Below the pieces are notes generated by a model that made no database searches, had not been told where the DNA came from, and saw only the letters and a list, made by a program, of their open reading frames with translations. From Reyranella sp. (GTDB taxonomy: Bacteria > Pseudomonadota > Alphaproteobacteria > Reyranellales > Reyranellaceae), in contig JAUXWB010000396.1 of assembly GCA_030684475.1 (NCBI GenBank), forward strand, positions 1-64,000: a stretch of DNA of 64,000 nt, in the 5' to 3' direction. Shown in pieces: positions 16,212-20,945 of this stretch. The position numbers and the translations under genes were made by a program. Every line of letters begins with the position of its first letter. Within the stretch, counting starts at the first letter, position 1.

Positions 16212-17416
16212 AGCCCCAATACCGCCTTGGCGATGATGTTGCGCTGGACCTCGTTGGAGCCGGCGTAGATCGTGGCGGCGCGGTTGTTGAGATAGAGCGG
16301 CATCGCGGTGATGCCCCACTCCGGCGTCACCGTCGGCGCGTTGTGGCCGAGCAGCCGCGCCTCGGGCTCGAAGGGCGCGGCATACCAGGCCAGCGCCTCG
16401 ATCCCGAGATGGTCGATCTTCTGCGAAGTCTCGCTGCCCCGGATCTTCATCGCCGACGAGGCCGCCCCCGGATTCTTGCCCTTGCTGAGGTCGGACAGCA
16501 CCTGCAGCTCGATCATCTCCAGCGCCTGGATGTCCATCTCGGCCTCGGCCAGGCGCTCGGCGAAGCTGCGTTCGGTGGCGAGCTTGCCGGAACCGTCAGC
16601 CGCCTCCTCGCGCACGATACGGCGCAGGTCGTCGAGTCTTGCATAGAGGTTGGGCGTATAGGCCTCGCCGCCGCGCTCGAACTCGAGCAGGTACTTGGCC
16701 ACCGTCCAGCCGGCGTTCTCCGGCCCGATGCGGTTGGCGATCGGTGTCCGGACGTTGTCGAAGAACACCTGGTTGACCTCGTGATCGCCGGCCAGCGTGA
16801 CGATCGGCTTCACGGTGAGGCCCGGCGTGTCCATCGAATCGATCAGCACGAAGGAGATGCCGTCCTGCGGCTTGCCTTCCGCCGCGGTGCGCACCAGGCA
16901 GAACATGTGGTCGGCGACATGGGCTCCGGTGGTCCAGATCTTGGTGCCGTTGATCACGTAGTCGTCGCCGTCCCTCACCGCCCGGGTCTTGAGGCTGGCG
17001 AGGTCGGAGCCCGAGCCCGGCTCGGAGTAGCCCTGGCAGAAGATGATGTCGCCCGACACGATGCGCGGCAGGTACTTGGCCTTCTGCTCCGGCGTGCCGT
17101 ATTTCATGATGACGGGCCCCACCATGCGCAGCCCCATGGCGAAGATGCGCGGCGCGTCGACGGCCGTGCACTCGCGCGAGAAGATGTAGCGTTGGGTGGC
17201 GCTCCAGCCCGTGCCGCCATGTTCCTTGGGCCAGGTCGGCGCCGACCAGCCCTTGCGGGCCAGCACCTTGTGCCAGCGCACACCGGCTGCAACGTCGGCG
17301 AAGACGCCGCCGGTCTTGCGCCCGGCCTCGCGCAGGTCTTCGGTGAGGTTCTCGTCGAGAAAGCGGCGGACCTCGCTGCGAAAGGCCTCATCCTGGGCGC
17401 TGAGTGCTAGATCCAC
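16208..17416 (-). CDS. Acyl-CoA dehydrogenase
   Basis: 402 aa FAD enzyme forming a 2-enoyl-CoA from an acyl-CoA. The N-terminal helical domain, the FAD/substrate segments CQGYSEPGSGSDLASLKTRA (about 130-150) and YVINGTKIWTTGAHVADHMF (155-175), and the C-terminal NRAATIYAGSNEVQRNIIAKAVLGL tail are standard for the family. It is the first gene of a coupled string (ACAD, GST, ABC membrane domain), all overlapping by 4 bases. The SEPGSGSD plus late-domain pattern resembles ACADs from aromatic, terpenoid and steroid degradation as much as fatty-acid ones. Confidence 0.93.
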   Translation of the reverse strand: MDLALSAQDEAFRSEVRRFLDENLTEDLREAGRKTGGVFADVAAGVRWHKVLARKGWSAPTWPKEHGGTGWSATQRYIFSRECTAVDAPRIFAMGLRMVGPVIMKYGTPEQKAKYLPRIVSGDIIFCQGYSEPGSGSDLASLKTRAVRDGDDYVINGTKIWTTGAHVADHMFCLVRTAAEGKPQDGISFVLIDSMDTPGLTVKPIVTLAGDHEVNQVFFDNVRTPIANRIGPENAGWTVAKYLLEFERGGEAYTPNLYARLDDLRRIVREEAADGSGKLATERSFAERLAEAEMDIQALEMIELQVLSDLSKGKNPGAASSAMKIRGSETSQKIDHLGIEALAWYAAPFEPEARLLGHNAPTVTPEWGITAMPLYLNNRAATIYAGSNEVQRNIIAKAVLGL

Positions 17417-19078: not shown

Positions 19079-19248
19079 GAGACCGGCTCCGGTCGGCAAC
19101 GACCGTCAGGGCCTCGACGAGACGCCGGATGAGCGGTGCGACGGCCGGGACGCCGAAAGCGACAACGTGCAAGCCGCATGCCGATACCGTCGTGCGACCT
19201 CGGCAGTATTCTGTAGCGTTCGCTCCAAAATCGTGCTCTGGTCACCAA

Positions 19249-19866
19249 ATGGGGCGCCTAAAGGAATTCGACGAAACCAAAGCCATCGACGGCGCCGTCG
19301 ACTGCTTCTGGGCGCGCGGCTACAAGGCTACCTCGGTGCGCGACCTCGCCGGACGCATGGGGATCGGCGGCGCCAGCCTCTACAATGCCTACGGCGGCAA
19401 GCGCGCCCTGTTCGTCACGGCACTGGCCCGCTACGCCGACCGCTCGATGCGCGAACGAATCGCCCGACTGGAGTGCGGCGGGCGGCCGAAAGAAGCCATC
19501 CGGGCCTTTCTCGCGGAAATCATCGAGCGGTCCCTCGCCGACCGCGACCGCAAGGGCTGCCTGCTGGTCAACTCGGCGCTCGACGTGGCGCCGCACGATA
19601 CCGAAATCGGCAGGGTCGTCGCCGGCTACCTCGAGGAAATTCGCGCCTTCTTTCAGCGCAACATCGAGGCGGGCCGCCGCGCCGGCCAGATGCCGCGCAA
19701 CCTCGACGCCGCGGGCGTCTCGGCCCACCTGCTGGGGGTCCTGATGGGGATCCGGGTGCTGGCGCGCGCCAAACCCGACCGCGCACTCCTCGAAAGCGTG
19801 GCCCGCCCGGCGCTCGACCTGCTGGACGCGCCGGCGACGCCGCGCGTCCGGAGGCGCCGGCCATGA
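19249..19866 (+). CDS. TetR/AcrR family transcriptional regulator
   Basis: 205 aa. The N-terminal HTH is clear (AVDCFWARGYKATSVRDLAGRMGIGGASLYNAYGGKRALF, about residues 13-52), of the ComR/YxaF-like type with SLYNAYGGK. The C-terminal domain includes DRDRKGCLLVNSALDVAPHD, with a conserved cysteine after KG typical of this subgroup (NemR/ComR-like; some members sense electrophiles or metals). ATG 19249 is chosen because homology begins there. The stop overlaps the DUF1330 gene (ATGA), so the regulator is probably the first gene of the operon with DUF1330 and the redoxin. Confidence 0.9.
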   Translation: MGRLKEFDETKAIDGAVDCFWARGYKATSVRDLAGRMGIGGASLYNAYGGKRALFVTALARYADRSMRERIARLECGGRPKEAIRAFLAEIIERSLADRDRKGCLLVNSALDVAPHDTEIGRVVAGYLEEIRAFFQRNIEAGRRAGQMPRNLDAAGVSAHLLGVLMGIRVLARAKPDRALLESVARPALDLLDAPATPRVRRRRP

Positions 19867-20291: not shown

Positions 20292-20945
20292 ATGTCACTG
20301 GCAGACAAACTGGCAGAAGCCCGCGCCGCAAGCGCGGGCCGGATCCCGCCCGAACGGGCGGCCATTATGCATCGGGCGACGGGCGATCTGCGGAAGTCCG
20401 GGATTCTCGACCGCATCGTGCCGGTCGGCAAACCCGCTCCGGCCTTCGAACTGGCCAACCACGACGGCCGCCGGGTTTCGTCGGCCGACCTCCTCGCGGC
20501 CGGGCCGTTGGTCCTGTCGTTCTTCCGAGGGTCGTGGTGACCCTATTGCAGGCATGAGCTGGACGCTCTGCAGACCATCTACACCGACATCGCAGGCCTC
20601 GGCGCCTCGCTGGTCGTGATCTCGCCCGAACTGCCGGCACGCACGGCAGACATGGCCGCCAAACAGAAGCTCACCTTTCCGATCGTGTGGGACGAGAAGT
20701 CGACGACCGCCGAAGCCTTCGGCCTCGCCTTCACCCTGCCTGACGACCTGAAGGCCGTCTATATGGGCTTCGGCAACGACCTCGCCGTCCGCAACGGCGA
20801 TCCGTCATGGCGCCTGCCGGTTCCGTCGCGGTTCGTGATCGACGGCGCGGGGATCGTGCGGCTGGTGCAGGCCGACCCCGACTACAGGTACCGGCCCGAG
20901 CCGGAGACGACGCTCGACGCGCTGCGCAAGGTCGTCACAGGTTGA
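20292..20945 (+). CDS. Putative selenocysteine-containing AhpC/TSA-type redoxin
   Basis: 217 aa if the in-frame TGA at 20538-20540 is read as selenocysteine. The frame before it encodes the redoxin N-terminus (GKPAPAFELANHDGRRVSSADLLAAGPLVLSFFRGSW). The same frame continues with PYCRHELDALQTIYTDIAGLGASLVVISPEL, WDEKSTTAEAFGLAF and RFVIDGAGIVR to the TAG-free end at TGA 20943-20945. The family normally has FFRGSW-C-PYC here, so the TGA replaces exactly the N-terminal (peroxidatic) Cys of a C-x-x-C, giving U83-P-Y-C86. A SECIS-like hairpin follows at the expected distance. AAGGAG is 6 bases before the ATG. The role would be thiol/selenol-dependent peroxide or disulfide reduction. The alternative is a nonsense mutation in a decaying gene. 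Confidence 0.8.
20552..20571 (+). other. Candidate bacterial SECIS hairpin
   Basis: Starting 12 bases after the TGA, GCA-(U)-GAGC pairs with GCUC-UGC around a five-base loop UGGAC (20560-20564). This gives 7 base pairs with one bulged U (20555), four pairs below the loop, and GG in the loop. The loop begins 19 nt after the TGA. Known bacterial SECIS elements have a bulged U, a short upper stem and a G-containing loop roughly 16-37 nt after the UGA. The structure was worked out by eye. Confidence 0.7.

Follow-up and report, generated by a model that had tools for sequence, protein, structure and literature searches.

A gene for a peroxiredoxin-like (Prx-like) protein in Reyranella almost certainly encodes a selenoprotein. 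On the sequence comparisons given below, its in-frame UGA would be recoded, by way of SelB, tRNA-Sec and a hairpin in the message, to give a Sec83-Pro-Tyr-Cys86 active site, and this was the best explanation of the data as a whole. Despite its internal stop codon, the open reading frame very probably gives rise to a working selenium enzyme. The gene was examined within the window, that is, the whole stretch of 64,000 nucleotides analysed, together with the remaining contigs of the host assembly (5.6 Mb in 550 contigs, 85% complete and 6.6% contaminated). The features of the locus are collected in Table 1.

Table 1. Features of the selenoprotein gene and its upstream neighbours, numbered by position in the window.
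Feature	Position	Strand	Remarks
TetR-family regulator	19129..19866	+	Same-strand upstream neighbour in most loci of the genus
DUF1330 (PF07045) protein, 141 aa	19863..20288	+	Directly upstream; separated by 3 nt from the selenoprotein ATG
Prx-like AhpC/TSA-fold selenoprotein (predicted) CDS, 217 aa	20292..20945	+	ATG to TGA stop; profile match, conservation and fold model
In-frame UGA, predicted Sec83 of UxxC (U-P-Y-C86)	20538..20540	+	TGA shared by 42 genomes; homologues from genomes lacking sel genes have Cys
Cys86 codon, partner thiol of UxxC	20547..20549	+	Counterpart of the peroxidatic Cys in alignments to true peroxiredoxins
Putative bacterial SECIS hairpin	20552..20571	+	Synonymous constraint; upper stem kept in 16/16 aligned sequences
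GCT (Ala) codon, 3' arm of the hairpin	20565..20567	+	Invariant, 41/41 genes

The frame opens with the ATG at 20292, runs through 82 codons to the internal TGA, and continues for a further 134 codons to the terminal TGA at 20943-20945; the residues around the internal codon read FFRGSW-U-PYC. The read-through product was matched by the PF00578 (AhpC-TSA) profile across residues 45-191, on both sides of the TGA, with an E-value of 2.6e-27 and a score of 95.7 bits (cut-off 26 bits). The codon reading and this spanning match bore out the proposal, made from the sequence alone, that an in-frame TGA joins two halves lying in the same frame. Only this one of the 14 AhpC-TSA genes in the genome contained an internal stop. 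Other read-through frames with a UxxC or CxxU motif in the window (14 rows besides this gene, some of them repeated) were set aside; their flanks resembled those of chance frames in GC-rich DNA.

An AlphaFold2 model of the product, built with 32 sequences, gave one continuous domain with a pLDDT of 95.8 and a pTM of 0.91. Truncation at the TGA followed by re-initiation would instead yield an 82-residue peptide and a separate protein of 109 residues starting at a GTG at 20616. Both pieces exist as mechanical open reading frames, but their separation would cut the predicted fold, and the invariant residues P84, Y85 and C86 lie between the TGA and position 20616; this explanation is very unlikely.

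Genes with the internal TGA were found in 42 of the 146 genomes searched, the window's own included, at identities down to 45%. Thirty-four of these genomes belonged to the genus Reyranella, four to other genera of the family and four to other families of the class; the isolate Reyranella aquatilis KCTC 52223 (L069) has the TGA form. From the 42 genomes, 41 genes were read codon by codon and each had the TGA at the UxxC site, within a UPYC motif (41/41). No Cys orthologue was found within the genus, and in the six homologues in which the aligned residue was read it was Cys and not Trp. Values of dN/dS were 0.07-0.28 before the TGA and 0.10-0.28 after it, indicating purifying selection on both sides. 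In the phylogenetic tree the Sec forms were grouped on one side of a branch with moderate support (93/49, 94% of bootstraps).

These results bear on two other readings of the TGA. Under the standard code the frame ends after 82 residues, as expected of a redoxin gene in decay that had picked up a nonsense mutation there, but the same TGA occurs in 42 genomes of several families, further internal stops or frameshifts were absent from the sequences read, and both flanks are under purifying selection; a pseudogene is extremely improbable. When the relatives were aligned for inactivating mutations, as the sequence-only reading had suggested, none were seen, and the site held only the same TGA or, outside the family, Cys. 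Hardly more credible is the decoding of TGA as an amino acid other than Sec, whether by near-cognate readthrough or under a changed code (TGA=Trp, for example). A frame that is open under a changed code does not by itself prove Sec, but TGA also serves as the terminal stop of the Reyranella gene and of most of its orthologues, the homologues align Cys rather than Trp, and the pattern is accounted for by a full Sec pathway that co-occurs with the TGA gene.

The components of that pathway were all located in the assembly. The selA gene was present, apparently split by a contig break, with its pieces at the ends of contigs C104 and C193. The selB gene (445.9 bits) was found on C193, adjoined by selC, a tRNA-Sec with the anticodon tca (UCA) and a score of 71.4 bits, and selD was present with a score of 296.6 bits. 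A genome devoid of sel genes had been named as grounds for abandoning the selenoprotein assignment, and all four genes were found. The earlier remark that no sel genes lie in the window was not contradicted, as the window held no tRNA of any kind and the sel genes were on other contigs. The selD sequence formed part of a 744-residue frame (L052:3992-6226), the N-terminal half of which was judged by eye to be NADH-dehydrogenase-like; in this it resembles the fusions called Ndh-SelD in PMC2398784. Between selA and selB, and overlapping the 3' end of selA, was a further frame (L050:4324-5454) in which Sel1-like (TPR-type) repeats were recognised, again by eye.

Either selA or selB was detected above cut-off in 40 of the 42 genomes with the TGA gene. 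The two others (G019 and G047) had the TGA gene and neither selA nor selB; both are draft assemblies, so an assembly gap is the likely cause. In two further genomes of the genus (G016 and G058) the TGA gene and selA lay together on one chromosome-size contig (C1), which rules out binning or contamination as the source of the pairing between the TGA gene and the sel genes. The four nearest Cys homologues, all from outside the family (G076, G084, G110 and G115; L144, L146, L147 and L148), came from genomes with no selA or selB above cut-off. Outside the family, selA/selB therefore accompanied the TGA form in four of four genomes versus none of four for the Cys form (Fisher test, p = 0.03, uncorrected for shared descent). 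Remoter Cys homologues (about 31-40% identity, and 43% for one in L140) occurred in sel-positive genomes as well and are probably paralogues. The one in L140 (genome G072, L140:7264-7728) was of the Cys type and shared its strand with the Sec gene, from which it was separated by about 3 kb. The original assignment as a probable selenoprotein was strengthened by the sel genes, the TGA in 42 genomes, the Cys counterparts outside the family and the purifying selection.

Translation of the UGA as Sec would be carried out by SelB and tRNA-Sec and steered by an intragenic hairpin that begins 11 nt past the codon. Read 5' to 3', the hairpin comprises GCA, a bulged U (20555), GAGC, the loop UGGAC, GCUC and UGC, and has a 3-bp stem, the bulge, a 4-bp stem and a 5-nt loop. 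Its seven base pairs are capped by a small apical loop containing G. In the SECIS of E. coli fdhF, a bulged U and G residues in the loop occur at comparable distances. In representatives of three other families (L141, L143 and L145) the stem was GCAGAGC-UGUAU-GCUUUGC, with seven pairs and no bulge.

Synonymous diversity within the gene was lowest at codons 88-93, which lie on the hairpin, at 0.15 of the expected value versus a median of 0.71. The Ala codon in the 3' arm was GCT in every gene read, while GCT made up 40 of the 1105 other Ala codons (3.6%) in the same genes, and none of six Cys homologues used GCT at the corresponding codon. Since the genes share descent, the 41 occurrences do not amount to 41 independent events. 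The hairpin was no more stable than dinucleotide shuffles (z of -0.02 for 42 nt and -1.09 for 26 nt), and its lower stem was not kept in all sequences. RNAalifold placed the lower stem slightly differently, pairing columns 21-24 with 45-48. Compensatory pairs were found neither for that structure nor for the U-bulge hairpin, so the RNA argument rests on the synonymous constraint. No Rfam match was obtained at the site at gathering or E-value thresholds. With an ordinary free energy and no compensatory changes, the hairpin is support for a SECIS element and not proof of one.

The solved folds nearest to the model were the peroxiredoxins Bcp4 and AhpE (Z about 22); chains of Bcp4, BcpB and AhpE superposed on 151-158 residues of it with Z values of 20.8-22.3 and an rmsd of 1.3-2.1. 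In the model, residue 83 immediately precedes the first active-site helix, which starts at residue 84. The sequence-only reading had placed the TGA at the peroxidatic cysteine and taken Cys86 as the resolving one. Alignment with the solved peroxiredoxins 5epf and 2cx3 gave a different assignment: the peroxidatic Cys was matched by Cys86, and the Thr/Ser of T/SxxC by Sec83, so the wording "peroxidatic cysteine" is not supported for the TGA. Against ResA (the CPHC variant 3c71), Sec83 aligned with the first Cys of CxxC. On these alignments the TGA is better described as standing for the first residue, the nucleophile, in a CxxC of thioredoxin type.

By analogy with the UxxC class, reduction of peroxides or disulfides by a UxxC selenol/thiol couple is the likeliest chemistry. 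Positioned where the first active-site helix has its N-terminus, the selenolate would most likely attack a peroxide or disulfide substrate; a Se-S bond would then form between Sec83 and Cys86, to be reduced in turn, as may be expected from the same class, by thioredoxin or a low-molecular-weight thiol. A selenoprotein acting as a true peroxiredoxin, with Sec attacking peroxide, would differ from this in function only and overlaps with the best explanation. It has in its favour the peroxiredoxin fold (Bcp4 and AhpE, Z about 22) and a Sec at the redox site, but Cys86 aligns to the peroxidatic Cys and residue 83 to Thr/Ser, in an alignment that cannot decide the attacking residue, and published classifications keep Prx (TxxU) and Prx-like (UxxC) proteins apart (PMC2398784, PMC13188914). 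Such a function appears rather unlikely. Somewhat less likely again is a hybrid peroxidase/disulfide reductase, with Sec in place of the catalytic Thr and Cys at the peroxidatic position, encoded in a dedicated TetR/DUF1330 operon.

Prx-like thiol:disulfide oxidoreductases (PF00578, UxxC) are a known predicted selenoprotein family, apart from the Prx TxxU family (PMC9312934, PMC13188914). A 2026 review ranks the Prx-like UxxC class as predicted (PMC13188914), and 225 "Prx-like 1" sequences were reported in the GOS survey (PMC2398784). The Reyranella protein, as yet unannotated, belongs with these known Prx-like UxxC selenoproteins as judged by sequence, its biochemical function being that suggested by the class. 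Shared with them are a PF00578 match above cut-off, the UxxC motif, a hairpin just past the UGA and Cys homologues elsewhere; the likeness to the GOS Prx-like 1 members is one of described features. The present genes differ in coming from Reyranella and other alphaproteobacteria and, in Reyranella, in lying behind a TetR gene and often a DUF1330 gene. A classical Sec peroxiredoxin (TxxU), which has Sec at the peroxidatic position and Thr/Ser three residues ahead of it, was considered and rejected, as Sec83 was at the Thr/Ser position and Cys86 at the peroxidatic one in the alignments to 5epf and 2cx3.

Other families were more distant. Homologues named "Peroxiredoxin-like family protein", from plasmids of Rhizobium, Methylobacterium, Paraburkholderia and others, were 41-48% identical to the Reyranella protein; they are annotated as ordinary proteins, and the Cys-type ones that were read have Cys in place of Sec. 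AhpE and Bcp/PrxQ have the same fold, but the Reyranella protein carries Sec83 at the Thr/Ser of their T/SxxC motif and, outside the aligned core, has some 40 additional, helical residues at its N-terminus. The UPYC of the Reyranella protein aligns with the CxxC of ResA-type oxidoreductases, but structures of the Prx branch outranked ResA in the fold comparison. Similarity to the SelL-related redox protein family (NF040769) was detectable at 41.8 bits, well short of the cut-off of 120 bits. In the literature searched, Reyranella occurred together with selenocysteine only in an unrelated feed paper, and a search for soil alphaproteobacterial selenoproteins returned none. The assignment extends the known UxxC class to Reyranella, and R. 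aquatilis KCTC 52223 is an isolate suited to the study of UxxC Prx-like chemistry.

Upstream of the selenoprotein gene, the start of the DUF1330 gene overlaps the stop of the TetR gene (ATGA). Across the loci of the genus, the TetR gene was on the same strand in most and DUF1330 was present in about half; neither was found on the same strand in the loci of other families. The conserved order suggests that the TetR regulator, and in many loci the DUF1330 gene, may form a small inducible operon with the selenoprotein gene.

A second selenoprotein is likely in the same genome. An AhpD-like gene of the carboxymuconolactone decarboxylase family (G000:C302:16337-17083, + strand; L158) has a CPFU motif with an in-frame TGA at contig position 16757. 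Its hairpin, with 11-nt spacing, a 7-bp stem and a 5-nt loop, has the same geometry as that of the Prx-like gene. The 41 genomes in which relatives of the AhpD-like gene were found all belonged to the genus, and each relative contained a TGA (scored for its presence). This second Sec gene would explain why selA is kept in species without the Prx-like gene. No Sec formate dehydrogenase alpha subunit was detected above the family cut-off in this genome despite its Sec pathway; the intact pathway in the genus would serve two or more likely redox selenoproteins. Both would be cut short by annotation that always treats TGA as a stop.
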